Source: Marinobacter bohaiensis | GTDB taxonomy: Bacteria > Pseudomonadota > Gammaproteobacteria > Pseudomonadales > Oleiphilaceae | Direction of reading: 5' to 3' | Length of the DNA stretch: 64,000 bases | NCBI RefSeq assembly: GCF_003258515.1 | Contig: NZ_QGEH01000001.1 | Coordinates: forward strand, 1,116,001 to 1,180,000 | Shown: positions 1,952 through 53,160 of the stretch, piece by piece | Layout: each line of letters starts with the position of its first letter | Position numbering within the stretch: position 1 is the first letter of the stretch | Notes under the pieces: model-generated | Database searches by the model: none | What the model saw: only the letters and a program-made list of their open reading frames with translations | What the model was told of the DNA's origin: nothing | Position numbers and translations under genes: made by a program

Positions 1952-2608
1952 GATGTCTCCTCGGTCTTGTTGGTTATAAATGGAGAAAATCAGTTGTATG
2001 TGTGAGCCCTTGATGACGCGGGGCTTTACCAGCGAAGCCAGACAATTGCGCGTCTGATCGATGTGAAGGTGCCGTGGCTTGGTGGTTTCAGAAGTCATGA
2101 TCCGGCCACGCGTTTCTTCTTATCGTCCTGATGCGTTGCCTCGGGCTTTACCTCCGGGTTCCGTCGCCCTGGGCAGGGGCGATTTTCAGCGTTGTTTCAC
2201 CTCCTTTGTCCCGGCGCCTTTGCCTTCCACGCCGTTCTTCTCGTGAAGCTCTTATCTTTCTTTTTTCTTCATATTTAGATATATCGTAGTTCAAGATAGA
2301 TCTAGAATTTGCAGGCAGCCATTAGACGAAGGTCTTAGGTCTTTGCTTTGATCACTTGCAGCCGATCCGGTGGATTCGTTAAGGCACGTCGGCGTCCAAC
2401 AAGCCGTGTTGGGGACAGGAAAAGCGATTGAGGGTGAATGGCGTTGACAGTCGACTTCCCGTGGCTGCGGGCTGGCCTCTTGAGTTGGGAAAGGGAGTCA
2501 CTCGCCGTGGCACGGGACGCTTTATTACGTTTTGGCAATGCTTGCGACAAGGCGTGGAGCCGGGACTAGATTTTTAGGGAAGTGTCTTTCGCAAGGAGGT
2601 CTCCGACC
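1952..2608. other. Long intergenic region between divergent dctP and the outer-membrane protein gene
   Basis: About 650 bases without a gene I can support. It contains the operator block at 2277-2334 and the leader of dctP. A 71-codon frame at 2335-2550 (minus strand) has no ribosome-binding site and no family character and is not called. The plus-strand end carries the AAGGAGGT ribosome-binding site of the next gene at 2594-2601. I see no other repeat or hairpin of note. Confidence 0.6.
2277..2334 (-). promoter_or_regulatory. Shared promoter/operator architecture upstream of dctPQM
   Basis: Read on the minus strand, this holds GACCTTCGTCTAAT (2334-2321), a 17-base gap, AGATCTATCT (2303-2294), a 7-base gap and CGATATATCT (2286-2277). 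The same elements at the same spacing occur at 37167-37224 and 52830-52887. TTCGTCT sits where a -35 box would lie and the first palindrome overlaps the likely -10, so a repressor bound there would block transcription; PadR from 45060 is the candidate. The start codon of dctP is 325 bases further on, an unusually long leader. Confidence 0.7.
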
Positions 2609-37166: not shown

Positions 37167-37224
37167 GACTTTTGTCTAATGGTTGGTGTGTATTTCTAGA
37201 TATATCTTGCTATCAGATATATCG
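37167..37224 (+). promoter_or_regulatory. Shared promoter/operator architecture upstream of the plus-strand catabolic operon
   Basis: GACTTTTGTCTAAT (37167-37180), a 17-base gap, AGATATATCT (37198-37207), a 7-base gap, AGATATATCG (37215-37224). TTGTCT is a plausible -35 box and the first palindrome overlaps the -10 region. The same elements and exact gaps recur at 2277-2334 and 52830-52887 (minus strand), and the palindrome recurs at the padR promoter. The start codon of the first gene is 120 bases downstream. Confidence 0.8.
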
Positions 37225-37343: not shown

Positions 37344-38075
37344 ATGACGCACGTTGAAACCCGCGATGTGGAATATGTTCAGGACGACACCCGCATGCTC
37401 GGTTATTTCTGTTCGCCACGGGATGCGGCGCCCGGGAGCTGTCCCGGGGTGCTGGTCGTGCACGGCGCCGAAGGTATGACCAAGCACGTCATGGCCAGCG
37501 CCGAGCGGCTGGCGGCCCTGGGGTACGCCGCCCTCGCTGTGGACTTGTGGGGCGGGCGCAAGCGGCTCAACGGACCGGCTGAATTCGACGACATGATAGG
37601 GCTTTTTGCTGAAGACCGGACACTTTGGATGGGGCGCATGGAGGCGGCCCGCGAGACGCTCCGGGCGCAGTCGTCGACCCATCCCGGCAAGCTGGGCGGT
37701 CTCGGCTACTGTTTTGGCGGTTCCTCGGTGCTGGAGTTTGTTCGCAGCGGCGGTGAGTTGCAGGGCGTGGTGAGTTTCCACGGCGGTATCAACCTGGTCC
37801 ACGACGACTGGTCGGATGCCTGCGGCGAGGCCCGGGCACTGATCTGCACCGGTGCCGACGACCCCATGGCCAATGCCGACGACCTGGCCCGTGTGCAGGA
37901 GGCCATGACCCAGGCCGGACTTGGTTGGGAGGTCAATCTGTACGGCCACACCAGGCATGCCTTTACCGAGGCCGACGGCCCCGGAACGCCCCCGTTTGCG
38001 GCCTACAGTGCCACCGCTGATTGCCGCTCTTGGCACGCCATGACGGGCTTCTTCGAGGATGTTTTCGGGCAGTGA
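37344..38075 (+). CDS. Dienelactone hydrolase-family protein
   Basis: A 243-residue alpha/beta hydrolase. The catalytic Cys is C123 in GYCFGG, the same number as in the classical dienelactone hydrolase; D172 (GADDP) and H205 (HTRHAFT) complete the triad, and E43 (HGAEG) matches the mobile Glu. The family opens lactones formed in aromatic ring-cleavage routes. It is first in the plus-strand catabolic operon, just behind the operator pair, and has GAAGAGG before its start. The actual lactone or ester substrate is not known. Confidence 0.87.
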   Translation: MTHVETRDVEYVQDDTRMLGYFCSPRDAAPGSCPGVLVVHGAEGMTKHVMASAERLAALGYAALAVDLWGGRKRLNGPAEFDDMIGLFAEDRTLWMGRMEAARETLRAQSSTHPGKLGGLGYCFGGSSVLEFVRSGGELQGVVSFHGGINLVHDDWSDACGEARALICTGADDPMANADDLARVQEAMTQAGLGWEVNLYGHTRHAFTEADGPGTPPFAAYSATADCRSWHAMTGFFEDVFGQ

Positions 38076-38127
38076 GGGGCTGGGTGCCCCGTCACGCGAC
38101 GACGCATGTCAGTAACAGGAGTGAATG

Positions 38128-38910
38128 ATGGATCTTGGTATCGCCGGGCGCAGGGCCTTTATCTGCGGATCGTCCCAGGGGCTGGGGCTGGCTTGTGCCC
38201 GCTCCCTGCTGGGGGAAGGCGTGGCGGTGACTCTGAACGGCCGCGACGAGGACAAGCTGCGGACAGTGGTCGACACCCTGCGAAAGGATTTCCCCCAAGC
38301 CGAAATCGGTCATGTTGCGGCGGATCTCACCACCCGCGAGGGGCGCGCTGCGATCCTCAGGGCCGTGCCGGATGTGGACATCCTCGTCACCAATAACGCG
38401 GGCCCGGCGCCCGGCGCGTTGGAGGACTGGGACGAGCCGGCCCTGGATGCGGCCATGGAAGCCAATTTCATGCCCGCAGTGCAGTTAATCCGGGCCTACA
38501 TCCCCGGCATGCGTCGCCGCGGTTTCGGCCGCGTCGTCAACATTACCTCGGCGATGGTGAAGTCCCCGCACTACATGATGGGGCTGTCCACTTCCGCCCG
38601 CGCCGCCCTGACGGCCATCAGCAAGGCCATCAGCCGAGAAGTGGCGGTGGACAACGTCACCCTCAACAACCTCCTGCCCGAGCGGGTGGATACCCCGCGC
38701 CAGGAATTCATGCTGCAGCGGCTGATGAAGAAGGAAGGAATCGGCCGGGACGAGGCACGGGAGCGCAACTGTCGCTCCATCGCCGCCGGCCGGTATGGCC
38801 GACCGGAGGAGTTCGGCGATGCCTGTGCATACCTGTGCAGCGCCCAGGCCGCGTTTATCTCCGGCCAGAACCTACAGCTCGACGGTGGTTCCTATGACGG
38901 CCTGGTCTGA
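38128..38910 (+). CDS. SDR-family protein lacking the usual catalytic Tyr-Lys pair
   Basis: A 260-residue Rossmann-fold protein of the short-chain dehydrogenase superfamily. The nucleotide motif is CGSSQGLGLA (T replaced by C) and NNAGPAPG follows at 89-96. S141 of the active site is present, but where YxxxK is expected (residues 154-158) the sequence is STSAR, so Tyr is Ser and Lys is Arg. This fits the atypical BKR-like SDR group, whose members lack a perfect catalytic tetrad. It may catalyse a non-redox step or bind an intermediate. ATG at 38128 is better spaced from AGGAG than the one at 38125. Confidence 0.85.
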   Translation: MDLGIAGRRAFICGSSQGLGLACARSLLGEGVAVTLNGRDEDKLRTVVDTLRKDFPQAEIGHVAADLTTREGRAAILRAVPDVDILVTNNAGPAPGALEDWDEPALDAAMEANFMPAVQLIRAYIPGMRRRGFGRVVNITSAMVKSPHYMMGLSTSARAALTAISKAISREVAVDNVTLNNLLPERVDTPRQEFMLQRLMKKEGIGRDEARERNCRSIAAGRYGRPEEFGDACAYLCSAQAAFISGQNLQLDGGSYDGLV

Positions 38911-38944
38911 CCGGAGCGGGCGCGAACCGGAGGAGATAAGCGGT

Positions 38945-39340
38945 ATGACGCGTGGGGAGCAGGACAGCCGACTGGCCATCCTGGAATTCGAGCGAGTTCG
39001 TCAGCGTGCCCTCACCGAGCCGGATCTGGGCGTGTTGGAAGGGCTGCTGGCCGACGACCTGGTGCATATTCACAGCACCGGCATGGTTCACGACAAGCCG
39101 GCTTTCCTCAACCACATCCGCAGGATGGGCGGCTTCGTCTCGATCGAGCGTGAGGTGCCCGAGATACGGGTCGAGGGACACCTGGCCGTCGTCACCGGCG
39201 TCACCATTAACACGGTGCGCTCGCTGGAAACCGGTGAGCGAATGGTCCGCCACGGATTCTCCACCCTGATTCTACGTCAGGTGGAGCAGCGCTGGGAGGT
39301 GGTGCTGTCCCAACTGACTCCGGTTCGCGACAGGTCCTGA
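38945..39340 (+). CDS. NTF2-like (SnoaL/DUF4440-type) protein
   Basis: A 131-residue protein with the cone-shaped NTF2-like fold pattern: an N-terminal helix (LAILEFERVRQRALTEPDLGVLEGLLADDLVHIHSTGMVHDKPAFL) followed by sheet strands ending RWEVVLSQLTPVR. Members include isomerases, dehydratases and aromatic-ring polyketide cyclases, and many have no known activity. The His residues in DLVHIHSTG line the usual pocket. It is embedded in the catabolic operon, so a role on a pathway intermediate is probable. GGAGGAG lies upstream of the ATG. Confidence 0.78.
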   Translation: MTRGEQDSRLAILEFERVRQRALTEPDLGVLEGLLADDLVHIHSTGMVHDKPAFLNHIRRMGGFVSIEREVPEIRVEGHLAVVTGVTINTVRSLETGERMVRHGFSTLILRQVEQRWEVVLSQLTPVRDRS

Positions 39341-39376
39341 CCTGTCTGGACGTTCATTCGTGAAAGGAAAAACAAG

Positions 39377-40231
39377 ATGAAACTGGTGCGATTTACGGAA
39401 AGCGGGACCACCCGTATCGGCAAGGTTGTGGGCGACCGGGTGGTGGACCTGTCCGGTGTGGCCGGCGTGGGGCACTCCATGCGGCAGTTGCTGGGCGACC
39501 TGCCGCAACTGCGCTCTGACCTGGAGGGCGTGGCCGAGCCGGCCTTTCCGATGGACAAGGTGCGCCTGGAGGCGCCGGTCAACGATCCGCAGAAGTTCCT
39601 GGGGATCGGGATGAACTATGCCAAACACGCCGAGGAGGCGCGCCAGGCCGGCATCAAAATTCCCGAGAGCCAGCTCTGGTTCAACAAGCAGGTCAGTTGC
39701 CTGAACGGGCCTTTCGATCCGGTGGTCAAGCCGCAGGAGTCGGACATGCTCGACTACGAGATCGAATTGGGCGTGGTCATCGGTCGCCGCTGCCGTCACG
39801 TGAAGGCGGATGGCGCACGTGCGGTGATCGCCGGTTACCTGATCGTCAACGATGTGTCCACCCGGGACTGGCTGCACAAGTCGCCCACGTTCACTCTCGG
39901 TAAGTCGTTCGACACGCACGGCCCTATCGGCCCCTGGCTGACCACCGATGATGAGATCGCCGACCCGCTGAACCTGGACATGAAACTGACGGTCAATGGC
40001 GAGGTGCGCCAGCATTCCCGCACCAACGACATGATCTATGACATCTACCAGCAGATCGAATACCTCTCCACGGTGATGACCCTGGAGCCCGGTGACATCC
40101 TGGCAACGGGCACGCCATCGGGTATCGGTGCACCCACAGGCAACTTCCTGGAGGAGGGCGACGTGGTGCGGCTGGACATTGAATCCTTGGGCTACATCGA
40201 GAACCGGGTGGTCGGTGACGGCCGGGGCTGA
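39377..40231 (+). CDS. Fumarylacetoacetate hydrolase-family protein (plus-strand operon)
   Basis: A 284-residue FAH-fold enzyme. The metal ligands E128 and E130 are seen in LDYEIELGVVIG, with further ligands around NDVSTRDW, and LEPGDILATGTPSGIG closes the pocket. The family splits C-C bonds of acylpyruvates (fumarylpyruvate, acetylpyruvate), decarboxylates oxaloacetate-like acids or isomerises ring-cleavage products. A second FAH-family gene is at 48206-49075 in the facing operon. The substrate probably is a 2,4-dioxo or muconate-type acid. AAAGGAAAAAC precedes the start. Confidence 0.87.
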   Translation: MKLVRFTESGTTRIGKVVGDRVVDLSGVAGVGHSMRQLLGDLPQLRSDLEGVAEPAFPMDKVRLEAPVNDPQKFLGIGMNYAKHAEEARQAGIKIPESQLWFNKQVSCLNGPFDPVVKPQESDMLDYEIELGVVIGRRCRHVKADGARAVIAGYLIVNDVSTRDWLHKSPTFTLGKSFDTHGPIGPWLTTDDEIADPLNLDMKLTVNGEVRQHSRTNDMIYDIYQQIEYLSTVMTLEPGDILATGTPSGIGAPTGNFLEEGDVVRLDIESLGYIENRVVGDGRG

Positions 40232-40277
40232 CGCCGGTGTGTACACCGATCCGTTGATCTATCGAGGAGCAAATGGC

Positions 40278-41552
40278 ATGGCCAGTGACGATTATCGTGA
40301 CTACATCCTGCCGCCGGACACCTTTCGTATCCAGGCGGCGCGGGGGGTGGACCCCAAGACCTATACCGAGCGCATGCTCTCCAACGAGAAGGGCGCCAAG
40401 CTGCGCGACGAGTGGAAGGCCGCCCTTGATGAGCCCTTTCAGGGTGTCACGCCCGACGGCGAGGTGGAGCATGGTCTGTTTGATCTTGAGGATGAAGGCT
40501 TTGATGTGGCGCCTGCGGTGGCGGCGGCAGAGGCGTTCCTGGAGACGCTGGATGAGGCCCAGCGCAAGCAGGTCGGCTATCCGGTGGACGCCCCGGAATG
40601 GCGGGGCTGGTATAACCCGGAGATTCAGTTCAACGACAACGGTGTACGCCTGGAGAACATGTCGGAGGGTTCGCGCCAGGCGTTCCTGAAACTGCTGCAG
40701 GCGTTTACCAGCGAAAAGGGGTTCACCAAGATCCGGCGACTGATGGACGCCAACCACTTTCTGGGCGAACTGTACGACCTTAACAACATCATGAACCGGT
40801 GGAGCTATCACGTTCTGATGTTCGGCGAGCCGTCCACCACAAAGCCCTGGGGCTGGAGCCTGTACGGCCATCACGCTGCCATCTGCTGTTTCGTCGTGGG
40901 GCGTCAGTTGGTGATCTCGCCCACCTTTATGGGGGTGGAGCCCAAGCACATCGACCGCGGCGACGGAGAGGCTTTCACTCTGCTCACCGGCGAGGAGAGC
41001 CTGGGGCTGGCGCTGATGCAGTCGCTATCGCCGGCGCTGCGCGATCGGGCCACGATCTATGGGTTGATGGAAGATCCGGCCATGCCGGACTGGCGCTTCA
41101 ACTTTGCCGACCAGCGCCACCTTGGCGGCGCCTGCCAGGACAACCGTGTGATTCCGCTTGAGGGCATACGTGCCTCGGAATTGGATCGATCCCAGCGCGC
41201 CAAACTGATGCAGGTGATCGAGACCTTCCTGGAATTTTTGCCCGACGGTCCGCGCGCGGCGCGTATGCGGCTCGTCGAGAGCCACCTGGACGACACCTGG
41301 TGGAACTGGATCGGCGGCTGCGGCGATGACGACGTTTTCTACTACCGCATCCAGAGCCCGGTGATCATGATCGAGTTCGACCATCACAGCGGCATGTGGC
41401 TGGGCAATGAGGAACCCGCCAAGTTCCACATCCACACCATCACTCGCATTCCCAACGGTAATGACTACGGCAAGGCCTTGCTGGATCAGTTCCAGAAGCA
41501 TTGTGGATGCGGTGTTCATGGCCCCGATCGGGGGCCGGGGCAGGCGGGATAG
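40278..41552 (+). CDS. DUF3500-family protein
   Basis: A 424-residue cytoplasmic protein matching the DUF3500 family, recognised by WGWSLYGHHAAICCFVVGRQLVISPTFMGVEPKHI and the later WWNWIG and FDHHSGMWLGNEEPAKFHIHTITR. The dense conserved His, Trp and Glu residues look like an active site or metal site, but no catalytic activity is established for the family to my knowledge. ATG at 40278 has GAGGAG eight bases upstream. Its place between an FAH enzyme and a porin within a ring-degradation operon suggests a catabolic enzyme, probably a hydrolase or lyase, as inference only. Confidence 0.8.
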   Translation: MASDDYRDYILPPDTFRIQAARGVDPKTYTERMLSNEKGAKLRDEWKAALDEPFQGVTPDGEVEHGLFDLEDEGFDVAPAVAAAEAFLETLDEAQRKQVGYPVDAPEWRGWYNPEIQFNDNGVRLENMSEGSRQAFLKLLQAFTSEKGFTKIRRLMDANHFLGELYDLNNIMNRWSYHVLMFGEPSTTKPWGWSLYGHHAAICCFVVGRQLVISPTFMGVEPKHIDRGDGEAFTLLTGEESLGLALMQSLSPALRDRATIYGLMEDPAMPDWRFNFADQRHLGGACQDNRVIPLEGIRASELDRSQRAKLMQVIETFLEFLPDGPRAARMRLVESHLDDTWWNWIGGCGDDDVFYYRIQSPVIMIEFDHHSGMWLGNEEPAKFHIHTITRIPNGNDYGKALLDQFQKHCGCGVHGPDRGPGQAG

Positions 41553-41891
41553 CCGCTCCGTCCCCAGGTCGGTCACCTCGTTGTTGTGTCGGAGGTGACT
41601 TGCCCCGGTTGCTGCATCGGGAATGCATCCGGGGCCCTTTTAGCCGCTAGCGGGACCGTTATCTCAAGACTGAGCCTTTTCCCGGGCTGGCTGTACGCCG
41701 GGCCGTTGGGCCTGCCTTTGTCTGGAATACGGTCGCGAGCTGGTATCGATACACGCCGCGGAAGCGCGTCCGGGCGACGCGGAGGAGGGCATGACACGCC
41801 GCCGGAATTCCGGTCAGGCCCAGAAAAACAGCGCTTTTATTCCAATCCATAACAAGACAGAAGCACACGAGAGAACAAGAGGGGCAACACA
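41553..41891 (+). other. Intergenic region between DUF3500 gene and porin gene
   Basis: About 340 bases without a supported gene. It holds the hairpin at 41603-41634 and, at its end, AGAGGGGC as ribosome-binding site of the porin. I saw no AGATATATCT site here, so the porin may depend on read-through or on a separate promoter that I cannot define. Confidence 0.5.
41603..41634 (+). terminator. Hairpin after the DUF3500 gene
   Basis: CCCCGG (41603-41608) with CCGGGG (41629-41634) and an inner TGCAT/ATGCA pair, followed by CCCTTTT. This resembles a rho-independent terminator and would reduce read-through into the porin gene. Confidence 0.65.
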
Positions 41892-43220
41892 ATGACAATA
41901 AAGTTGATATCCAGGTTGGGCTCTTTCATCGTTTCGTTTTTCCTGCTGTTCAGTCCGGTCGGTCATGCGGCCGAGGCATCCGGGGAATCCGTGGATTCGC
42001 TCAACGACTGGCTGGCACAAGGGACGTTTTTCGGTGAGCTGAAAACGATGACCTTCTTCAAGACCTACGAAGGCATCATCGACGACAAACGGACCCATTC
42101 GTTCGGCGGCGAGTTTCAGTATCGCAGCGCCGATCTCCACGGTTTCAGTTTCGGCGTGGGTGAATACTCCGCCTACAATTTCGGCCTGAATCCGTCCAAC
42201 CCGGACGAGACCGAGGGCTATGTGCCGTCCGACAACATCACCATGATCGGCAAGGCCTTCCTGCGCTACCGGGGCGCTGGTTTCGATCTCAAGGGCGGCC
42301 GCATCGGGCTGGATACACCCTTTGCCAACGAAGGTGACGGCCGCACCATGATCCCGGCGCTGTACGAAGGTTTCGGTGGCACTTACGCACTGCCGTTCAA
42401 TCCCGACATCAAGGTGTACGGCTACCGCATTTTCCGCTTCAAGCCCTTCAGCGAAGACAGCTTCATCAAGGGGGACGCCGGTAATCCGGAGATCCCCGAA
42501 ACCGACACGCCGCAGACGGACAGCAATGGCTTTGCCACTGCGGGTGTGCGCTGGGGACATCGCTACGGCGCCAATGCCGAGGCCTGGTACTACAACTTCG
42601 ACAAGCGCCTGCAACTGGCCTATGCCGGTTTCCAGATGCCGCTGGATTCCCTGAAGATGGATTCCTGGACCCCCTTCTGGGCTCTGCAGTACGTCAAGGA
42701 ATGGGACGTCTCCGATCAGGCGGCACCGTTTGAGAACGTGGACACGGACCTGTATTCCGGCCGTGTAGGCATCAATTCTCGCAACGACAAGATCTACCTC
42801 GCCGCGACCTATGTCCCCCACAAGGACGACGCTTTCCTCAGCGGCGCCTACGTCGCGCCCTACAGCTACGGTATCTACAACTCCACGCCGATCGAGGATG
42901 GCCAGCCGCTGGCGTCCATGGCCACCAAAGACCAGCCGGGGCGCTCCTATTCACTGCGCTATGTGCACCATGACGACAAGCTGCTGGCGGTTCTGGGCCT
43001 GACGCGCTTTGAACTGGAGGAATCGACCGGGATCAACTACCCGCTGGATGAATCCGAATTCAACGCCGGCTTCGTGATCCTGGGTTACAACGTCACCGAT
43101 CGTTTCGGGCTGCAGTTCGAAGGGGATTACATCGACTCCGACTCCGACGTGACCGGCGCCTATCACGCCGAGCGTATCCGCATCACCTACAAACTGGGCA
43201 ACGCGCCGGGGCACGGTTAG
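41892..43220 (+). CDS. OprD-type outer-membrane porin
   Basis: A 442-residue exported barrel protein. A signal peptide (about residues 1-26, ending GHAAE) precedes a long run of amphipathic strands; GEFQYRSADLHGFSFGVGEYSAYNFGLNP, FLRYRGAGFDLKGGRIGLDTPF and ITYKLG resemble the OprD family of substrate-specific channels, many of which admit aromatic acids and are encoded with their catabolic genes. It would bring the operon's substrate across the outer membrane. The C terminus (APGHG) extends a few residues beyond the last strand. Confidence 0.8.
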   Translation: MTIKLISRLGSFIVSFFLLFSPVGHAAEASGESVDSLNDWLAQGTFFGELKTMTFFKTYEGIIDDKRTHSFGGEFQYRSADLHGFSFGVGEYSAYNFGLNPSNPDETEGYVPSDNITMIGKAFLRYRGAGFDLKGGRIGLDTPFANEGDGRTMIPALYEGFGGTYALPFNPDIKVYGYRIFRFKPFSEDSFIKGDAGNPEIPETDTPQTDSNGFATAGVRWGHRYGANAEAWYYNFDKRLQLAYAGFQMPLDSLKMDSWTPFWALQYVKEWDVSDQAAPFENVDTDLYSGRVGINSRNDKIYLAATYVPHKDDAFLSGAYVAPYSYGIYNSTPIEDGQPLASMATKDQPGRSYSLRYVHHDDKLLAVLGLTRFELEESTGINYPLDESEFNAGFVILGYNVTDRFGLQFEGDYIDSDSDVTGAYHAERIRITYKLGNAPGHG

Positions 43221-43285
43221 CCGCCTTTCGACAAGGGGCGCCCGCGGGTGCCGGCGCCCCGTTCTTCGCCAGCGAGGTCAAACCC

Positions 43286-43675
43286 ATGCAGCGACGACAG
43301 AGCATCTATATCGACGGGTTCGCACACAGGAACCCCATTCCGGCAGCCTGCCGCGTGGACGGCATGCTTTATTCGGGCGTGATCTACGGGCGTGATCCCG
43401 CCACCGGAAAAATGGCCGACGGGCTGGAGTCGCAGTGCGCCCTAATGTTCGGGCATGTTCGCAGCATCCTTGAGGTGGCCGGCGGCAGCACCGCCGACAT
43501 CATCAAGATGACCCTGTGGATGCAGGACAAGTCCCAGCGCGACGTGGTGAACCGACACTGGGAGCGGCTGTTCCCGGACCCGCAGTCGCGCCCGGCGCGT
43601 CACGCGCTGGATGGAAACTTCACCGGTAACATGCTGATCCAGTGCGATTTCGTGGCGGTACTGGCGAACCGCTGA
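43286..43675 (+). CDS. RidA/YjgF-family protein
   Basis: A 129-residue RidA-superfamily protein. The conserved Arg that binds the substrate carboxylate is in SRPARHALDGNFTGNMLIQCDFVAVL near the C terminus. RidA hydrolyses reactive imines or enamines; members in aromatic routes act as 2-aminomuconate deaminases. Its location in the catabolic operon suggests either deamination of an amino-substituted cleavage product or clean-up of reactive enol intermediates. It follows the porin by 65 bases. Confidence 0.85.
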   Translation: MQRRQSIYIDGFAHRNPIPAACRVDGMLYSGVIYGRDPATGKMADGLESQCALMFGHVRSILEVAGGSTADIIKMTLWMQDKSQRDVVNRHWERLFPDPQSRPARHALDGNFTGNMLIQCDFVAVLANR

Positions 43676-43715
43676 TCCCACCGTGACACCTGGTGTATAC
43701 GCAGAGGACCTTTCC

Positions 43716-44939
43716 ATGACGTTCGATAGCGGTAACCGCCGTCAGCGTGTACAGCTCATTGTGGTGCTGGGCATCCTCAGCGCGGCGTCCTCCCTGGGCA
43801 CGGACATCTACTTGCCGGGGCTGCCGGCGCTGACCGAGGAGTTTCGGGCCGATCCGGCCGTTACCCAGTACAGCCTGAGTCTGTTCTTCATCGGCCTGGC
43901 GGTGGGTCAGTTTCTCTATGGTCCCATCGCCGATCGCTACGGCCGCAAGCCGGTGCTGTACTTCGGGTTCACGTTGTACCTGTTGGGCTGCGTGGCCGGT
44001 GCCCTGGCGGGGTCGGTCACCACGCTGATCCTGGCGCGGGCGCTGCAGGGCCTGGGGGCCGCCACGGGCCAGGTGATTCCCCGAGCCATCGTGCGTGATC
44101 GTTTCTCCGGTGCGCAGGCGGCCCGTGTGATTTCCTTCGTGATCATGGTGATGGCCATTGCCCCGCTGGTGGCCCCGCTGATTGGGAGCCTGGTGCTGAG
44201 TGTGGCGTCCTGGCGTGCGATTTTCTGGCTGTTGGCGGCCTACGCCACCCTTGGTTTGCTGGCTTCGGCGCTGTGGCTGGGCGAGTCCCACGGTGTCGAC
44301 AAACGCGCGCGCCACGGTAGCCTGCCAGCCCAGTACCTGGGCTATTTCGAGCTGCTGCAGCGCGGACCTTTCCCGCTGTTCCTCGCGTGTGGGGTGCAGA
44401 TGTTCGCCGTGCTGTTTGCCTTCGTCTCCGCCAGTTCCTTCATCTACATCGACCAGTTCGGCGTCGACGACTCCCTGTTTGGTTTCTACTTCAGCTTCAA
44501 CATGATCGCGATGCTGTTGGGGAATCTGATTAATGGCCGGCTGGTCGTGCGCTACGGGTATCTGCCCATGCTGGGCATCGCCGTGAGCAACACCCTGATC
44601 TGGAGCATTGTCCTGCTCGTCATGGCCGTTACCGGCGTGGGTGGGCTCTGGGGCATCGTGATCCCGGCCTTCCTCATGTTGCTGACCGTCAGTATGGCCG
44701 GAGCCAATACCATCGCCGGGCTGCTGGATCTGGCACCGGATACCGCCGGCGCGGCTTCGGCGCTGTTCGGCGTGACCCAGTTCGGCTGCGCGGCGCTGGC
44801 GGCTTCCCTGGTCGGCGCACTGGGCAGTGACGCCGTGGCCATGGCCAGTGTGACCTGTGCCGCGGCGACTGGCGCAACACTGACCTACAGACTGTTGCGG
44901 CGCCGCTTGACCGGGACCGCAGTGGAAGAAGCGGCTTAA
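43716..44939 (+). CDS. Bcr/CflA-family MFS exporter
   Basis: A 407-residue membrane protein with twelve helices. LGTDIYLPGLPALTEEF near the N terminus and GPIADRYGRKPVL in loop 2-3 are typical of the Bcr/CflA drug-resistance subfamily. ATG at 43716 has GAGGAC upstream and removes eleven non-family residues. It follows ridA by 40 bases, so it may be the last gene of the operon, removing a toxic intermediate or surplus substrate. The transported compound is unknown. Confidence 0.87.
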   Translation: MTFDSGNRRQRVQLIVVLGILSAASSLGTDIYLPGLPALTEEFRADPAVTQYSLSLFFIGLAVGQFLYGPIADRYGRKPVLYFGFTLYLLGCVAGALAGSVTTLILARALQGLGAATGQVIPRAIVRDRFSGAQAARVISFVIMVMAIAPLVAPLIGSLVLSVASWRAIFWLLAAYATLGLLASALWLGESHGVDKRARHGSLPAQYLGYFELLQRGPFPLFLACGVQMFAVLFAFVSASSFIYIDQFGVDDSLFGFYFSFNMIAMLLGNLINGRLVVRYGYLPMLGIAVSNTLIWSIVLLVMAVTGVGGLWGIVIPAFLMLLTVSMAGANTIAGLLDLAPDTAGAASALFGVTQFGCAALAASLVGALGSDAVAMASVTCAAATGATLTYRLLRRRLTGTAVEEAA

Positions 44940-44980: not shown

Positions 44981-45038
44981 TTGTTTGCATGTCAGGCGGA
45001 TGCTATATTTCAGATATATCTAAAATTAAGTTATATGC
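44981..45038 (+). promoter_or_regulatory. padR promoter with overlapping operator
   Basis: TTGTTT (44981-44986) and TATATT (45004-45009) form a -35/-10 pair with a 17-base spacer. AGATATATCT (45012-45021) begins two bases after the -10, and a weaker copy AGTTATATGC (45029-45038, seven of ten) follows after seven bases, the same gap as in the three catabolic promoters. This position fits autorepression. The GACTTTTGTCTAAT element is absent here. Confidence 0.75.
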
Positions 45039-45059: not shown

Positions 45060-45962
45060 TTGACCAGCTTGAAGAGTGCGGCGGGAAGTAACCCGAGAAA
45101 GAGTAGGGCAAAAGGTAACAAGCGTGATGATCGTTCTCCAGGCCATGACGGCGACAGGTCCGGTGACGCTGCCGGCTCGGGAAGCCGGGGCGGCCGACGC
45201 AGTGGCCGTTTGTTCGACTACGGCGAACTGCGACTGCTGGTCCTGACCATGCTCGCGGACCAGCCCAGCCACGGCTACGAGATCATCAAGCAGATCAAGG
45301 AGCGCTTCGGCGGCAACTACAAACCCAGCCCGGGCGTGATCTATCCCACGCTGACCTGGCTCTATGACAAGAACTACGCGGTCATCGACACCGAGGGTGG
45401 CGGCCGAAAACAGTACAGCATCACCTCGGAAGGCAAGGCGTTCCTGAAAGCGAACGAGGCGCAGGTAAAGCTCCTGATGTCACGGGTTGGACCGTCCGGC
45501 AAAGGCCGGCCGCCGGCGCAGATCGTCAACGCAATGGACCACCTCAAGTTCGCCCTGAGTCTGCGCATGAAGCGTGAACCGCTGGCGGAAAGCACCCTCG
45601 ACAAGATCGCAGGGGTCATCGATGCGGCGGCCGATGAGGTCGAGGAACTAATGAACGAGCGGCCGGTGGCCGATACCAACGTCAAAAGCGTCGCCGTTGT
45701 CGAGACGCCGAATGCGGAGCGTTTCGTGCGCCGGTTGAGCAGTCACTTCCAGCACAAGACGCCGGTCACCGCCGGCGAGAACTCGGTCCAGATCCGTATG
45801 TCCCGGGGGGCTTGTTTCCTGGAGGCCGGGGAGCATGAACTCCGTGTCACCGTCATGTCGCCCGACGTCAAGCAGATGGGGGAACTCCAGGAGATCATCG
45901 TACGTCACCTGGAAGATGCCTCCGTCCGCGAAGAGCTGAGGTTCGACTGGCAGTCGGCCTGA
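45060..45962 (+). CDS. PadR-family regulator fused to DUF2218
   Basis: A 300-residue regulator. Residues 1-50 are a basic, disordered tail; 51-135 form a PadR winged helix (LFDYGELRLLVLTMLADQPSHGYEII, PSPGVIYPTLTWLYDKNY); 135-200 are helical as in PadR dimerisation domains; 210-300 match DUF2218 (ETPNAERFVRRLSSHFQHK, HLEDASVREELRFDW). PadR proteins repress genes for phenolic-acid metabolism and release DNA on binding the phenolic compound. The start is a TTG at 45060 with GGAG upstream. It sits between the two catabolic operons and carries their operator in its own promoter, so it is the candidate regulator of all four promoters. Confidence 0.85.
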   Translation: MTSLKSAAGSNPRKSRAKGNKRDDRSPGHDGDRSGDAAGSGSRGGRRSGRLFDYGELRLLVLTMLADQPSHGYEIIKQIKERFGGNYKPSPGVIYPTLTWLYDKNYAVIDTEGGGRKQYSITSEGKAFLKANEAQVKLLMSRVGPSGKGRPPAQIVNAMDHLKFALSLRMKREPLAESTLDKIAGVIDAAADEVEELMNERPVADTNVKSVAVVETPNAERFVRRLSSHFQHKTPVTAGENSVQIRMSRGACFLEAGEHELRVTVMSPDVKQMGELQEIIVRHLEDASVREELRFDWQSA

Positions 45963-46595: not shown

Positions 46596-47390
46596 TCAGG
46601 ACGTACCGGCCCGGGGCGGTACTTTCTCCTTGAAGGCGCTGGCCAGTCGCGTACTTTCCTTGACCAGCAGGCCAACGTCGCTGCCCACGGCGACAAAGGT
46701 GGCGCCCAGTTCCAGGTAACGTTCCACCAGTTTGGCATCGGCAGACAGAATGCCGGCGGCCCTGCCGTGTGACTGGATGCGTTTGAGGGCGTCCTCGACC
46801 ACGGCCTGGACCTCGGGTGCTCCCGGATTTCCCAGATAGCCCATATCGGCGGCAAGATCGGCAGGGCCGACGAAGACGCCGTCCACGCCTTCGGTGGTGG
46901 CGATGTCATCCAATGCCTCCAGGCCGGCCCGGTTTTCGATCTGCAGCAGCAGGCAGATCTCGTCGTTGGCGGTCTGCAGGTAATCCGGGATGCGGTTGAA
47001 CGCCGACGCTCGCGCGAGGGCCGCGCCGACCCCCCGAATCCCCTGTGGTGGATAGCGTACCGCACGCACCATATCCCGGGCCTGGGCAGCGGATTCGATC
47101 ATGGGCACCAGCAGTGTCTGGGCGCCGATGTCCAGGTATTGCTTGATCAGGGCCGGCTCGCCGATGGTGGCGCGAACCGCGGTATGACACGGCGAGGCCG
47201 CCAGGGCCTGGAGCTGCGCCATCATCAGGGGCACATCGTTGGGGGCGTGTTCGCCGTCGATCAAGAGCCAGTCGAAACCGGCGCCGCCGCAGATCTCGGC
47301 GGTATAGGGGCTGGCCAGGGCGACCCAGAGGCCGATCTGGGGACGCCGCTCCAGCAGCGCCTGTTTGAAAGTGTTACGCGGGGCAGGCAT
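46596..47390 (-). CDS. hpaI: 4-hydroxy-2-oxoheptanedioate aldolase-type enzyme (HpaI)
   Basis: A 264-residue class II pyruvate aldolase. [34 protein letters not shown] holds the catalytic His; LLQIEN and [25 protein letters not shown] carry the metal ligands; resemblance to E. coli HpaI runs along the whole length. HpaI yields pyruvate and succinate semialdehyde at the end of the homoprotocatechuate meta-pathway. ATG at 47390 has GAGGA five bases upstream and starts nine bases after the hydratase stop. It is the last gene of the minus-strand operon. A paralogue is at 16406-17230. Confidence 0.9.
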
Positions 47391-47398
47391 GGCATTCC

Positions 47399-48202
47399 TC
47401 ACTCAAAGAAGCAGCTGACGGTGCCGTAGGGGCCGAAATCGCCGACGATGGTGTCACCGTGGCGGGCCTCGACCGGGCGGATGAAAGAACCGGACAGCAC
47501 CACCTGACCGGCCTCGATGCGGTCGCCGTAACGGGCCAGGCGGCGGGCCAGCCAGGCGATGCCGCGCGCGGGATGATTGAGCACCCCGGCCCCCAGTCCG
47601 GTTTCCTCGACGGCGGCGTTGCGCGAGACGATGGCGCCGGTCCAGCGCATGTCGATCTCGTGGGCGCGCACGGCCCGGCCGCCAAGCACGATGCCGGCAT
47701 TGGCCGCGTTGTCGGAGATGGTGTCGACGATGGTACGTGCCTGACCGGTTTCCGGGTCTTTGCGCAGAATGCGGGTGTCCAGGACCTCCAGCGATGGGGT
47801 CACGTAGTCGGTGGCGTTGATCACATCGAAGACAGTGACGTCGGGGCCGGACAGCGGGGCTTTCATGACGAAGGCCAGCTCGGCCTCAATGCGGGGCTGG
47901 ATAAAACGGTCCGGCGGGATGCGGTTGCCGTCCTCGAACAGCATGTTGTCGAACAGCACGCCCGAGTCCGGTGTGTCGATGTTAAGGGCGTATTGCATGG
48001 CCTTGGAGGTCAGGCCGATTTTCCAGCCGATCACACGGCGGCCGGCGTCGATCTTGCGGTTGACCCAGGCGGTCTGGACGGCGTAGGCGTCGTCCAGAGT
48101 CATGCCCGGATGTTGCCGCGACAGGAGGCCGGTCTGCCGACGGGTTTTCTCGGCTTCGTCCAGGTCGGCGACGGCCTGCTGGATGGCGTTTGGGTCGAGC
48201 AT
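47399..48202 (-). CDS. hpaH: 2-oxo-hept-3-ene-1,7-dioate hydratase-type enzyme (HpaH)
   Basis: A 267-residue member of the HpaH/MhpD hydratase and decarboxylase family. The metal-binding Glu pair appears in [12 protein letters not shown] (about residue 106) with a third Glu in [40 protein letters not shown] is the family's N-terminal pattern. HpaH adds water to 2-oxohept-3-enedioate before aldolase cleavage; relatives hydrate 2-oxopent-4-enoate or decarboxylate 4-oxalocrotonate. Direct coupling to hpaI (nine-base gap) supports the hydratase role. It starts three bases after the FAH stop. Confidence 0.9.
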
Positions 48203-48205
48203 GGT

Positions 48206-49075
48206 CTATCCCTCGTCTTCCACGATGTTGCGCAGCACGCCGATGCCTTCCGCCTCGACCTCAACCACATCGCCCGGCTGCAGCCAGAGCGGTGGCTCGA
48301 AACGGGCGCCGGCGCCGGTGGGGGTGCCGGTCACCAGAATGTCGCCGGGTTCCAGTGTGGTGAACGTGGATATGTAGGCGATGATCTCGCGAAAGGAGAA
48401 GAGCATCCGGCTGGTGCGGTCCTGCTGGCGAATCTCGCCATTGACGCGGGTCGTCAACTGGATATCGGCCAGTTGGGACGCGTCGGTAAAGGGCACCAGC
48501 CAGGGACCCATAGCGCCGCTGCTATCGAAGTTCTTGCCCTGGGTGACGTTGAACTTGGCGTGGCGAACCCAGTCGCGGATGGTGCCTTCGTTGCACAGCG
48601 TCAGGGCGGCGATGTGGTCCAGCGCTTTAGCCGCCGGGATGCGACGCCCCTTCTTTCCGATGACGATGGCGATCTCGCCTTCGTAGTCCAACTGCTCGCT
48701 TTCCGGCGGCCGTATCAGCGGCTGCAGGTGGCCGGTCAGGGAACCGGGAAAACGCACGAACAGGGAGGGCTTGGGCGGCGCGTCCTGATCGTCGCGGTAC
48801 TCGGCATTGCGGTTGGGATAGTTGACCCCGACGCAAAGGATTTTGCCCGGTCTGGGCAGGGGAATCTCATAGGTAACGTCTTCGGGGCTGAAGTCGGGCT
48901 CGAGGTTGGTGACCTCTTCGGCGAGTGTGGCCAGCGCGTTGTCGGCGACCACCTCGTGCAGTGTCGGCCAGCGGGACGAGTAGCGGGCCGACAGGTCGAT
49001 GATCCCGTGATCGGTGACCAGGCCGTAGAGGATACCCCGGGGCGACGATAGAGTTGCAAATCGGGCGTGTTTCAA
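48206..49075 (-). CDS. Fumarylacetoacetate hydrolase-family protein, HpaG-like (minus-strand operon)
   Basis: A 289-residue FAH-fold enzyme. Metal ligands E132 and E134 lie in LDYEGEIAIVIGKKGR, and LEPGDILVTGTPTGAG follows. In the homoprotocatechuate pathway enzymes of this fold (HpaG/HpcE) decarboxylate and isomerise the ring-cleavage acid just before the hydratase, which matches its position ahead of hpaH. Acylpyruvate hydrolysis is the alternative. The start is a TTG at 49075 with a strong AGGAGG five bases before it; no ATG is suitable. Confidence 0.87.
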   Translation of the reverse strand: MKHARFATLSSPRGILYGLVTDHGIIDLSARYSSRWPTLHEVVADNALATLAEEVTNLEPDFSPEDVTYEIPLPRPGKILCVGVNYPNRNAEYRDDQDAPPKPSLFVRFPGSLTGHLQPLIRPPESEQLDYEGEIAIVIGKKGRRIPAAKALDHIAALTLCNEGTIRDWVRHAKFNVTQGKNFDSSGAMGPWLVPFTDASQLADIQLTTRVNGEIRQQDRTSRMLFSFREIIAYISTFTTLEPGDILVTGTPTGAGARFEPPLWLQPGDVVEVEAEGIGVLRNIVEDEG

Positions 49076-49196
49076 CTGAGCCTCCTGTTGTTGTTTGGAC
49101 TCGAGTCAGTTTCAACGCGGTTCGCCCGAGAGGGCGGGCGAAAACAGGCCGCCATCGAGTATGGCGGCCGCGTTCCCGGTGTGGATGCCGGGGGAT

Positions 49197-50255
49197 TTAG
49201 TCGAGGTTGATGTTGAACATACGGGCGGCGTTTCCACCCAGGAGGTTGGCCTTGTCTTCGTCGGTGACGTTCAGGGATTCGATGGTTTCGATGCCCTGGA
49301 AGAACCAGTCCTTGCGGATCGGGTAGGAGCTGCCGTACAGAATGTTCTTGCTACCGATGACGCTGACAGCCGCTTCGAGCTGGGCCTTGCCCCACTGCGG
49401 GGCGCCGGAGGTGTCGAAGAAGATGTTGTTGCTCAGCTGATCGCGCAGGTTGCTGGTGCCGGTCTGGAAGCGGTCCACGGCATCGTTGAACTTGTGCTGG
49501 GGCGGAACCAGCATGTCGGCGAAGGCGTAGAAGGCACCGCCCAGCATGGAGTGGATGAACTTCAGGTTGGGCAGCTCGTCGAACATGCCGCTGAACAGCT
49601 CGCGGCCGACCGCGGTGGCCTGGTCCACGCAGCGACCGAACTGGCGACGCTGGTTGGTGTACGGCAGTACCGAATGGTAATCCACCGGCAGCGGCGTGTG
49701 GTGGACCACCACCGGTACGTTCAGGTCATTGAGGAACTTCAGGTAGGGACGGAAGACCGGGTCGTCCAGGTAGATCTGGCCGTAGTGGGCCACCATCTGC
49801 ACGCCCTTGAAGTCCAGTTCGTTCAGGCAGCGGTCGACTTCGCGCAGGCAGGCGTCGGTGCCCCAGGGCGGAACGACGGCGAGCGCGGTCATCTTGCCGC
49901 CACTGCGTTTGACGTATTCGGCCATACGGTCGTTGACCAGTTTGCAGGTTTCGATGTCGAGCCATTCCTGCCACACCGGCAGACGGAAGACCGCATGGTC
50001 CACGCCGGCTTTTTCCATGTCGGCCAGTTGGCTTTCCAGGGTGTACTGACCTTCGGCGTAGTTCAGGTTCACGTAGCCCTTGGGCTGTTCGATGATCAAC
50101 TGCTGCAGGTCCTTGCCTTCGATCTGTTCGACCCGGGTGTGTACGCCATATTGGCGGGGGATGCAGTCGAGAAAGGAATTCAGCAGATTCTTGTCGGAGA
50201 ACAGGTCGCCCGGCAGCCAGTGCATGTTAGCGTCGATGATTTTTCTGGAACTCAT
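49197..50255 (-). CDS. Amidohydrolase-2 (ACMSD-like) family protein with altered metal ligands
   Basis: A 352-residue TIM-barrel protein of the amidohydrolase-related family that includes ACMSD, gamma-resorcylate decarboxylase and oxalomesaconate hydratase. The usual first-strand motif (His/Glu-x-His) reads N10-M-H12, and the Asp at the end of the barrel (usually GTDYP) reads GSSYP. His residues at VVVHHTP and FIHSMLGGAF remain. Metal binding may therefore be weak or different. In the operon it would be expected to decarboxylate or hydrate an aromatic acid or ring-cleavage product. ATG at 50255 has AAGGA eight bases upstream; the frame from 50324 adds a low-complexity tail. Confidence 0.84.
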   Translation of the reverse strand: MSSRKIIDANMHWLPGDLFSDKNLLNSFLDCIPRQYGVHTRVEQIEGKDLQQLIIEQPKGYVNLNYAEGQYTLESQLADMEKAGVDHAVFRLPVWQEWLDIETCKLVNDRMAEYVKRSGGKMTALAVVPPWGTDACLREVDRCLNELDFKGVQMVAHYGQIYLDDPVFRPYLKFLNDLNVPVVVHHTPLPVDYHSVLPYTNQRRQFGRCVDQATAVGRELFSGMFDELPNLKFIHSMLGGAFYAFADMLVPPQHKFNDAVDRFQTGTSNLRDQLSNNIFFDTSGAPQWGKAQLEAAVSVIGSKNILYGSSYPIRKDWFFQGIETIESLNVTDEDKANLLGGNAARMFNINLD

Positions 50256-50390
50256 GGTTTTGGTCCTTGTTGTGGTTTCAGTCGTGTTTCTGATTGCTGT
50301 TGTGGATTCATGATTGCGCGCCATCGTGCGACGGCGAACGTTGGGCCGGACCGTTTCTTGCCGAACGTGCCCGGTCCCGGTTCGATTTCC

Positions 50391-51662
50391 TCAAGACGTG
50401 GAGAAAACCGATTTGTACTTCCCTGCCTCGCCGGCGCCCTCTTTTTTTCCGGGGATTTTCATCCCGGCCTTGGCGTGGTATTCGCTAAAGATGGAAAGCG
50501 CTTCTTCGTAGGGGAAGATCGTCTCGATATCGTCGAAGGGTTTGCCGCCACTGCGTTCCTCGACAATGCGGCGAACCACCTCCGGGCCTTCGCCACGGGA
50601 GGCCATGACCAGCCAGTTGACCTTTTCCCGGCGCTCCGCCTCGTATTGCCTGAGCGCCTCCGCCGGGTCGTCCACCGCGGCCAGTCGCTCGGCCAGCACG
50701 CGGGCGTCGACGAAGGCCTGGCAGACGCTGTTGCCGCCGCGTGGGTACATGGCGTGAGCCGCGTCGCCGAGTAGCGTGATGCGACCGAACGACCACTGGG
50801 GCAGTGGGTCGTGGTCGATCAGCGGGAACAGGTAGCATTCCCGCGCGTTGCGGATCATCTCGCCGACATCGAGGAAGTCCAGCTTGCAGTCGTCGAACAC
50901 GTGTTCGATTTCCTGGATGCCCACTTCCTGATTCCAGTCTTCCTCGCTCTGGGGCTTCTCGTCCTGCTCGACCACCCAGTTGACCAACTGATTGCCCTGG
51001 CCATCGACGTTGTCCTGGATCGGGTAGACGATCAGGGTGCCCTGGCGGATCGGATCGCCGATGTGCAGGATGCTGCCGCCGGTCTTGATCGGCGGCATGA
51101 CGGTAACGCCGCGGTAGAGGGTCAGGCCGGAGAAATGGGAGCGGTCGGATTCCGGCAGCAGTTTGCTGCGGATGACCGAGCGGATACCGTCGACACCGAT
51201 CACCACATCGGCGCGGACCTGGCCAGGCTCACCCTCGAAAGTCAGGGTGACGCCGTCTGCATCCTGATCGATGTCCTTGCAGCGCGCGCCGAGCGTGATG
51301 GCATCCTCGCCCAGACGGTCCAATACGGCCTTGTAGAGCATCATCTGCATGTGGCCGCGATGAACGAAACGCTGGTCGTGGTCGTAGCCCATATGGCGGC
51401 CGCATTCCTCGCCGAAGATCTTCTGGCCGTAACCGGTGTAGAAGACGGATTCCCGGGCTTCGACGGAGATGTCGCGGAAGTCTTCATACAGTCCCAGTTC
51501 GGTGATTTCTTTCACCGCATAGGGCTTGATATCCACGCCCACGCCGAGCGGTTTCAGCTCCGGGGCGGCTTCGTAGATGTGTGGGCGAAAGCCCTGCTGG
51601 TGGAGTCGCAGCGCGGTGGCCAGGCCACCCGGGCCCGCGCCGATGATTGCAATGTCCAGCAT
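50391..51662 (-). CDS. FAD-dependent aromatic monooxygenase (PhzS/salicylate hydroxylase-like)
   Basis: A 423-residue group A flavoprotein hydroxylase. It has the FAD-binding GxGxxG (IIGAGPGGLATALRLHQQG, residues 6-24), the DG motif (DVVIGVDGIRSVIRSKL) and the GD motif (ITLLGDAAHAMYPRGGNSVCQAFVDA), which define the class. The wording resembles PhzS and salicylate-type hydroxylases, which hydroxylate an aromatic acid, often with loss of CO2. It would add the hydroxyl that creates the diol for the dioxygenase encoded just upstream. AGAGGA is eight bases before the start. Confidence 0.88.
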   Translation of the reverse strand: MLDIAIIGAGPGGLATALRLHQQGFRPHIYEAAPELKPLGVGVDIKPYAVKEITELGLYEDFRDISVEARESVFYTGYGQKIFGEECGRHMGYDHDQRFVHRGHMQMMLYKAVLDRLGEDAITLGARCKDIDQDADGVTLTFEGEPGQVRADVVIGVDGIRSVIRSKLLPESDRSHFSGLTLYRGVTVMPPIKTGGSILHIGDPIRQGTLIVYPIQDNVDGQGNQLVNWVVEQDEKPQSEEDWNQEVGIQEIEHVFDDCKLDFLDVGEMIRNARECYLFPLIDHDPLPQWSFGRITLLGDAAHAMYPRGGNSVCQAFVDARVLAERLAAVDDPAEALRQYEAERREKVNWLVMASRGEGPEVVRRIVEERSGGKPFDDIETIFPYEEALSIFSEYHAKAGMKIPGKKEGAGEAGKYKSVFSTS

Positions 51663-51725
51663 GGTTCGTTTCCTCTTGTTGTTAGCGGTAGCTCCGTGCC
51701 GGAGCCGGTGTCGGATGATTGGTGG

Positions 51726-52739
51726 CTATTCGTTCACCAGCGCCAGGAATCGCTCCAGGGTCGGTGGGTCCACCTTGATGTTGGGCTCGCGCGGTTCGGT
51801 CCCCACGAAAGGACTCGCTTCGGCAAACCATTTCTTCTGCGCCGGGAACCCCCACTGATCGGCCCGTTTGGGGTCGGCCAGATCCCAGGCCAGTGGCGGC
51901 TCCAGGTCGATGTGCTGGTAGTGGGTGTTGAACAGCTCGACGCGGTGGCCGTCCGGGTCGCGGAAGTAGACGAACAGTGCGCCGCTGATGCCATGGCGCC
52001 CCGGGCCGCGCTCCAGACGGGTGGCATAGCCCAGGGATCCGGCCACGTCGCAGGCGCGGATCATGTCGTTGGTATCGGGGAGGGTGTAGGCGAAGTGGTG
52101 CAGGCGCGGTCCCAGCCCGTTGGTAAAGACGATGTCGTGCGGGTTGCCCTTGCGCTGCATCCAGACGCCCCACAGATTCTCGCCGCCATCCTCGCGCTTG
52201 GAAAAAGTGTACTCGCTGAGCCGGAATCCCAGCGGCTGGTAGAACTCATAAGCGCGGCGTACGTCGTGGGTCTGGATCTGGTAGTGATCGATGCGCTGGG
52301 CGCTGGCACCGCGGTAGTGGTTGTATTCCTTCATCATCCGCGGACGTCGCTCCATGGAAGACGTCAGCTCCAATGGCACACCGGTGCTGTCGGTGACGTG
52401 CAGGGTTGGGCCCTGGAAAGGCACGTCGACAAGCTGGCAGTCGATGCCGCGGCTGCCGAAGTAGTCCTGGGCGGCGTGGATGTCGTCGTCGGTCAGTACC
52501 CGCATGCCGATCCGGGCGCATTTGCCGGCGTTCGGCGACTTGTTAAGCACGAGGCTGTGGTGACCGTTCTCCTCCAGCCCTCGCAGGTAGACGCTGTTGG
52601 CGTCCTCATCGCTGACCACCAGCCCCACCAGTTCGGTATAGAAGTGTTTGCTGGCTTCCAGATCGCTCACATTGAGCACAACGTGACTGGTGCGGGTCAC
52701 GTTGAAGGGTGGGTTCAGGACGAAATCATTCAGGCTCAT
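51726..52739 (-). CDS. Extradiol ring-cleavage dioxygenase, HpaD/HPCD-like (VOC fold)
   Basis: A 337-residue type I extradiol dioxygenase with two VOC modules. Iron ligands are H152 (IDHYQIQ), H214 or H215 (LHHFAY) and E268 (HRVELFN); H201 (GNPHDI) matches the acid-base His200 of homoprotocatechuate 2,3-dioxygenase of the Brevibacterium type. The numbering is nearly identical to that enzyme (155, 214, 267, 200). It opens a catechol-type ring with O2. It is the first gene of the minus-strand operon, 90 bases after the operator pair. Homoprotocatechuate is a likely but unproven substrate. Confidence 0.88.
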   Translation of the reverse strand: MSLNDFVLNPPFNVTRTSHVVLNVSDLEASKHFYTELVGLVVSDEDANSVYLRGLEENGHHSLVLNKSPNAGKCARIGMRVLTDDDIHAAQDYFGSRGIDCQLVDVPFQGPTLHVTDSTGVPLELTSSMERRPRMMKEYNHYRGASAQRIDHYQIQTHDVRRAYEFYQPLGFRLSEYTFSKREDGGENLWGVWMQRKGNPHDIVFTNGLGPRLHHFAYTLPDTNDMIRACDVAGSLGYATRLERGPGRHGISGALFVYFRDPDGHRVELFNTHYQHIDLEPPLAWDLADPKRADQWGFPAQKKWFAEASPFVGTEPREPNIKVDPPTLERFLALVNE

Positions 52740-53160
52740 TGTTGTTCTCCCTGTCGTTCGACGCGGCTCCGGACGGGCCGGCCTTTCACACTTTGGTGCG
52801 TCTTTCGATTGCGAGTGATTTGAATATTTCGATATATCTTAGAAAAAGATATATCTTAATTTTCCGATCAACGATTAGACAAAAGTCGTAGTTGAGGTGT
52901 TTGGTTTGGAGAAAAGGTGGGAGCTTTGCACCGAGCTGGTGCGCTTGGGCGTCGGTCGTGCGTCGGTCAGTTAGCCGAGGTGGGCGTTACTGTGATGAGC
53001 CCCGGGTAGAAGGCGTGCCGTTGCGAGGTGGCAGGCGCTGGTGAGGTCTGCGCCGCACCGGGCACGGATACTGCTCGTGTTGGGATGTTTCACACGTTGA
53101 GCGGAGGTTGCTGCCCATGCTACTCGTTGGCCGGCGGTGTCTCCGCATTGGGGAAAGAGC
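52740..53160. other. Divergent intergenic region between the dioxygenase operon and the dehydrogenase gene
   Basis: About 420 bases with no supported gene. The left part carries the minus-strand promoter and operators (52830-52887). The right part leads to the dehydrogenase start at 53161, preceded by GGGGAAAGAG. I see no further conserved element. Confidence 0.55.
52830..52887 (-). promoter_or_regulatory. Shared promoter/operator architecture upstream of the minus-strand catabolic operon
   Basis: On the minus strand: GACTTTTGTCTAAT (52887-52874), a 17-base gap, AGATATATCT (52856-52847), a 7-base gap, AGATATATCG (52839-52830). This is the same order and spacing as at 37167-37224, and the element with its flank (TACGACTTTTGTCTAAT) is identical over 17 bases. 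Expected role: promoter repressed by PadR and released by an aromatic inducer. Confidence 0.8.

Follow-up and report, generated by a model that had tools for sequence, protein, structure and literature searches.

Regulators of the NfeR/YqjI type within the PadR family carry a His/Cys-rich N-terminal extension that binds metal, and the nfeF-nfeR region of Escherichia coli is reportedly the subject of two papers on YqjI. The operators of the phenolic-acid PadR proteins are probably of another form. According to an excerpt of PMC7981267, nfeF is repressed by NfeR and excess nickel relieves this repression. A PadR family gene has also been placed beside an aromatic pathway, namely next to the vanillate genes of Rhodococcus ruber Chol-4 (PMC6498646, in an excerpt), a likeness to the present locus that is known solely from annotation. 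The stretch of Marinobacter bohaiensis DNA analysed here, 64,000 nucleotides long and hereafter called the window, holds a real and compact PadR regulon of four sites, marked by an operator of known type, unusual targets and a second element in fixed register. What looks new is the use to which the operator is put and the second matching DNA element. The regulon offers an operator code that can be tested for a PadR branch that has had little study (the YqjI type with DUF2218), ties that branch to aromatic catabolism instead of metal reduction and provides a handle on two obscure domains, DUF2218, which may be a sensor, and DUF3500, which may be an oxygenase that opens rings; with four sites, it is also small enough for complete testing.

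The regulator is encoded by padR-DUF2218 at 45060..45962 on the plus strand, where the PadR model covers residues 61-130 (PF03551, 2.1e-16) and DUF2218 residues 212-298, and as classed by its sequence it is a PadR of the NfeR/YqjI type. It shares 40% identity over 147 amino acids with E. coli NfeR (BLASTP, 1e-36), including an identical PSPGVIYPTL stretch that we take to be the recognition-helix region, and it is the sole match to itself in its own genome at E <= 0.001. The two systems have in common a homologous PadR domain and AGATATATCT palindromes before both the regulator and its target. They differ in the palindrome period, which is 11 bp in E. coli and 17 bp in the window, and in their targets, which here are aromatic catabolism and import rather than nfeF. 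The window protein also departs from NfeR in having a His/Cys-poor N-terminus and a fused DUF2218. The first 60 residues of NfeR include 13 His and 7 Cys, against 1 His and no Cys in the first 54 residues of the window protein, and eight operator-bearing relatives have 4-12 His in their N-terminal stretch, the start codons not being curated. DUF2218, fused in the window, forms a separate frame after padR in six of the eight relatives and was not found in the other two. Its genes are placed in metallophore and siderophore clusters in an excerpt of PMC11317620, with a role in regulation or transport suggested. Among the part of the window ORFs that was scanned with Pfam, no ferric reductase (nfeF-like) domain was found. 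A PadR that lacks the His-rich N-terminus, is fused to DUF2218 and is tied to a ring-cleavage/DUF3500 cluster and a TRAP importer is unusual. As read here, translation would begin at a TTG, a start codon that is uncertain, and the first 54 residues (45060-45221) form a basic extension poor in His and Cys.

Composite promoters and target operons

Three promoters share a single layout of 14-17-10-7-10 bases (upstream box, spacer, palindrome 1, gap, palindrome 2) with identical spacing. Promoter A (37167-37224, plus strand) lies upstream of operon A, promoter B (52887-52830, minus strand) upstream of operon B and promoter C (2334-2277, minus strand) upstream of operon C. In promoter A, the box GACTTTTGTCTAAT at 37167..37180 (+; extended box 37164-37185) is followed by palindrome 1, AGATATATCT, at 37198..37207 and, 17 bp from it, palindrome 2, AGATATATCG, at 37215..37224; the palindromes here and below are strandless. 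Promoter B has the box GACTTTTGTCTAAT at 52874..52887 (-), palindrome 1 at 52847..52856 and palindrome 2 at 52830..52839, and promoter C has GACCTTCGTCTAAT at 2321..2334 (-), AGATCTATCT at 2294..2303 and CGATATATCT at 2277..2286. Pairwise identities among the three sites are 14/14, 12/14 and 12/14 for the box, 10/10, 9/10 and 9/10 for palindrome 1, 10/10, 8/10 and 8/10 for palindrome 2 and 8/17, 9/17 and 8/17 for the spacer. Common to all three in a gapless alignment are TA.GAC.TT.GTCTAAT.G.TG in the box region, AGAT.TATCTT and GATATATC. Outside the composite, identity drops abruptly to background at both ends (20-bp steps); counted from the box start, the conserved block extends from about -3 to +62, a little beyond the limits first drawn. 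The original prediction had placed three equally spaced composites at these coordinates and strands and had held their elements to be conserved and their surroundings not; all three were found again with the 14-17-10-7-10 spacing, between flanks at background and around spacers with 8-9 of 17 bases identical.

An alternative to selection is that the promoters are duplicated copies that owe their fixed spacing to descent. The spacers, 47-53% identical where chance would give 25%, lend this some weight, but the abrupt end of the likeness at both block ends and the far lower identity of the spacers than of the elements make it unlikely; a variant in which selection followed an old copying event could still hold. 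Among 100 dinucleotide shuffles of the window, none came nearer to the composite than 9 mismatches, against three observed places at 0, a comparison that is post hoc because the 27 fixed bases of the pattern were drawn from the sites themselves. The double palindrome, GATATATC-N9-GATATATC, was absent from these shuffles at up to 2 mismatches, against four places observed.

These four are also the only ones at this threshold in the whole genome (4,755,891 bases scanned): two are exact, one has 1 mismatch and one has 2, all lie inside the window, and together they comprise the three composite sites and the padR-DUF2218 promoter. At 3 mismatches there are two further genomic places, the reversed control giving four per strand at <=3. 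A small local regulon had been predicted, and double operators at up to 2 mismatches are indeed confined to this cluster; the composite, likewise, was found at its three sites and not at many unrelated promoters. The fourth double operator, GATATATC with GTTATATG 17 bp on (45013..45037, strandless), lies in the padR promoter, which is without an upstream box, and at 2 mismatches it keeps the 17-bp period. A candidate sigma-70 promoter for padR, TTGTTT-N17-TATATT (44981..45009, +), was read by eye, scores below the scanner threshold and ends just before the operator. In the window and in the five relatives that allowed a count, 32-47 bases separate the beginning of the operator from the start codon of padR.

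The targets were originally named as an aromatic-type operon, a ring-cleavage operon and a TRAP importer. Operon A (37344..44939, +), delimited by strand and spacing, would comprise genes for a dienelactone hydrolase (37344-38075), an SDR (38125-38910), a DUF4440/SnoaL-like protein (38795-39340), an FAH-family hydrolase (39377-40231), a DUF3500 protein (ORF 40092-41552, its true start probably later), a porin-like protein (41892-43220, OprD model below cut-off), an ORF left out of the domain scan (43286-43675) and an MFS transporter (43683-44939), all on the plus strand. The putative operon B (46596..52739), wholly on the minus strand, has genes for an HpaD-type extradiol dioxygenase (51726-52739; NCBIfam 338.2 bits, cut-off 321.4), an FAD monooxygenase (50391-51662), an amidohydrolase (49197-50324), an HpaG-like protein (48206-49075; HpaG-C model 179 bits, cut-off 276.4), HpaH (47399-48202; NCBIfam 435.5 bits, cut-off 351.5) and HpaI (46596-47402; NCBIfam 405.7 bits, cut-off 368.8). 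Operon C is dctPQM, of which the first gene, dctP, encodes the TRAP substrate-binding protein (878..2098, -); dctQ and dctM come next and extend beyond the left end of the window, outside which the operon is completed.

No aldehyde dehydrogenase that might act as the HpaE semialdehyde dehydrogenase was found among the scanned ORFs of operons A and B; there is one elsewhere in the window (14909-16402), in a sugar-acid cluster. The substrate of operon B may be other than homoprotocatechuate. For a DUF3500 protein of Aspergillus nidulans, an excerpt of PMC12388069 cites a proposed conversion of 1,2,3,5-tetrahydroxybenzene to 5-hydroxydienelactone, a reaction that fits the neighbouring dienelactone hydrolase here, and DUF3500 may be a ring-opening oxygenase. 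The DUF3500 ORF (40092-41552) lies near the hydrolase gene (37344-38075), and there is a sequence relative in the solved chain Amc20 (9x86).

The double palindrome and the PadR clade

The operator had been put forward as a form not previously described, which does not stand, as its core is AGATATATCT and this sequence is present twice in the nfeF-nfeR intergenic region of E. coli, where the palindromes before padR have a period of 11 and 2 mismatches. Going by these letters, the operator belongs to a known kind and is not a new form. A literature search on GATATATC together with PadR gave no relevant title, and one on AGATATATCT gave none among the matches listed.

Five plasmid loci (Sinorhizobium, Ancylobacter, Agrobacterium, Pannonibacter and Marinibacterium) were taken for their PadR from 182 matching plasmid records, and in each of the five an exact GATATATC-N9-GATATATC stands directly before padR; among YqjI-type padR loci picked by protein, five of seven have an exact 17-bp double operator in front. 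A search by pattern only, through 398 genomes of the phylum (the window's included), matched three others, all three with a YqjI-type padR directly behind; they belong to the phylum of the window but to another class, and the reversed control matched one genome. Seven more distant PadR loci (L027, L032, L034, L035, L036, L040 and L041) gave no double palindrome at periods of 11, 17 or 20 with up to 3 mismatches. The one YqjI-like padR (41% identity) from the family to which the window belongs, L018, has two near-palindromes in front of it (1440-1461), which by eye stand some 12 bp apart and so differ in period from the 17 bp of the window.

The alphaproteobacterial plasmid loci resemble the window in operator and in 17-bp period (5/5); they differ from it in having 5-12 His N-terminally, DUF2218 as a separate frame, no exact box and no hpa genes found. 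DUF2218 lies beside padR in four of the five and DUF3500 near padR in three (L038 11717-12856, L039 9914-10759 and L049 4261-5040). In Ancylobacter and Agrobacterium the operator is followed, all on one strand, by padR, DUF2218, a methyltransferase gene and DUF3500, and by this order DUF3500 recurs as a target. Siderophore uptake genes lie near padR in the Pannonibacter locus, and at two further loci we recognised by eye what are presumably iron-export-like and TonB-receptor-like genes.

The double operator is well linked to this PadR clade, and the original choice of PadR-DUF2218 as the binder is a likely one, the protein-picked loci (5/7) and the pattern-found genomes outside the order (3/3) being in agreement. 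The two palindromes probably form a tandem operator for the PadR-DUF2218 encoded nearby, a reading to which a probability of about 0.78 may be given. That some other regulator binds them is very improbable. It would account for six double palindromes in genomes of the order and family that have no PadR match in the DNA read: three exact ones in same-order genomes (of 390), with no match in ~19 kb, and three at 1 mismatch in same-family genomes (of 163), with none in 3 kb. Against it, the operator stands at padR in all five plasmid loci, in the three out-of-order genomes and in the window, and the search of the genome yielded a single PadR of this type. The three exact same-order examples each occupy 1501-1525 of their loci (L050, L051 and L052), with no PadR match nearby, and that of L052 is followed after ~20 bases by a possible start codon and is perhaps the operator of another regulator.

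If PadR-DUF2218 does bind the palindromes, two PadR dimers, or one extended complex, would sit 17 bp apart over the promoter/start region and would repress dctPQM, the dienelactone hydrolase/DUF3500 operon, the hpaD-type operon and padR itself, until a signal released PadR and lifted repression at the four promoters. Binding and repression, like the activator considered below and the signal, are what we infer from this arrangement.

The upstream box

The box is present at the three structural promoters and absent from that of padR. It contains a GAC-N4-GTC half-palindrome, is a poor palindrome overall and includes TCTAAT, which is invariant at the three sites and matches five of the six bases of the -10 hexamer TATAAT. 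Its core, GACNTTNGTCTAAT, occurs without mismatch at four genomic places (the three composites and one other) and with at most 1 mismatch at nine, against 11 in the reversed control. The extended box is found at 0 mismatches solely at the three structural promoters; its six other matches, all at 3 mismatches (control 7), lie wholly or partly inside frames of at least 80 codons in five cases, L088 being the exception. Consensus scans for sigma-70 promoters found none at any of the four promoters, and the shuffles gave 0.1-0.4, so these zeros carry little information, and no -10 or -35 element is assigned here; the scans favour neither the activator nor the core-promoter reading of the box.

Class II activators bind centred near -41.5. 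Were TATATC in palindrome 1 the -10 element, the centre of GAC-N4-GTC would fall near -41.5, and the fixed spacing would then hold box, -10 and operator in register. At the structural promoters, and at these three alone, the box would most likely be bound by an activator as second factor; the odds that it is an activator site rather than a core promoter element are about even, and the activator step itself is put at a level chance.

A possible, if less than probable, alternative is that the box is the core promoter, with TCTAAT as -10 and the PadR pair acting as a roadblock at ~+12 to +38, no second factor being needed. The invariance of TCTAAT at the three sites and its 5/6 agreement with TATAAT speak for this reading, and an operator close to the start or beyond it is the common arrangement, as the distances counted at padR show. 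Among the weak genomic matches to the box, L084 (3 mismatches, partly in frame) reads TATAAT where the composites have TCTAAT and lies ~80 bases ahead of what is probably a gene start; this too favours a core promoter. However, there is no recognisable -35 element at 16-18 bp upstream at any of the three sites, and the invariant bases upstream of TCTAAT, together with the fixed distance to the operator, exceed what a -10 plus roadblock needs. That the box is instead the -35 element (TTGTCT/TCGTCT), the -10 sharing bases with palindrome 1, was one of the original suggestions and is unlikely. TTGTCT matches TTGACA at four of six positions at sites A and B, but site C has TCGTCT, the -10 at 17 bp would be TCTAGA or TTAAGA (2-3/6), and TATATC, 23 bp away, is too far for sigma-70.

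For the activator, one lead comes from an excerpt of PMC8249747, where E. coli PepA is reported to bind the nfeF-nfeR spacer in gSELEX. AsnC, encoded beside operon B, was weighed as the box-binding protein and set aside: its gene faces that of a glutamate dehydrogenase, with no box match at up to 2 mismatches nearby.

Related clusters and origin of the regulon

The double operator precedes YqjI-type padR genes elsewhere; no second full composite was found in 163 family, 390 order or 398 phylum genomes, the window's own being in each count. The catabolic genes recur on a Thioclava plasmid, where 11 of 17 queried window proteins are matched at 46-69% identity with their order partly kept, among them hpaD and the genes for the FAD monooxygenase, the amidohydrolase, DUF3500 and the dienelactone hydrolase; a second Thioclava record agrees with the first in annotation. 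This cluster differs from the window in having GntR and IclR genes where the window has PadR and in being without double operator and box, no PadR match, no double operator at up to 3 mismatches and no box at up to 2 being found in it.

HpaD searches returned three other genomes among 276 of the class (the window's included), at 44-45% identity, and 12 with a match among 347 of the family of G684, which belongs to another class. Eight of these 12 regions gave no double operator at up to 3 mismatches and no PadR match; box matches in the eight were at 2 mismatches only (one in L073, two in L076), and the only other cluster genes above 33% identity were HpaG/FAH homologues, in L078 and L079. The PadR protein scan of named genomes yielded two distant loci. 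The best padR match in 57 related genomes is a partial one at 41%, the best hpaD match in 275 other genomes of the class stands at 45%, and for dctP the 162 other genomes of the family give no match at 1e-90, with 12 plasmid matches at 25-29% identity among the matches listed. Given these poor matches to padR, hpaD and dctP in relatives, the regulon looks to have been acquired and wired up locally.

A more speculative and rather doubtful reading makes the regulator an NfeR-type PadR of metal homeostasis turned catechol sensor. The His-rich N-terminus would have been lost and DUF2218 taken in as a module for catechol-like or ferric-catechol ligands; PadR would govern import and the hydroxylation of the ring as well as two ways of opening it, through HpaD and the putative dioxygenase DUF3500; and the composite promoter would need a second factor, an activator, in exact register with the PadR pair.

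Two neighbouring units may be recorded. A palindrome at 37111-37132, which by eye resembles a Fur box, stands where a gene for a FecI-like sigma factor (36530-37144, -) begins; this gene, with FecR and a TonB receptor gene after it, makes up an iron-uptake unit abutting operon A. Between operons C and A, a sugar-acid-type cluster (12258-24352) contains galactarate/altronate dehydratase, aldehyde dehydrogenase, HpcH/HpaI aldolase, TctABC, a second DctP and LysR genes.
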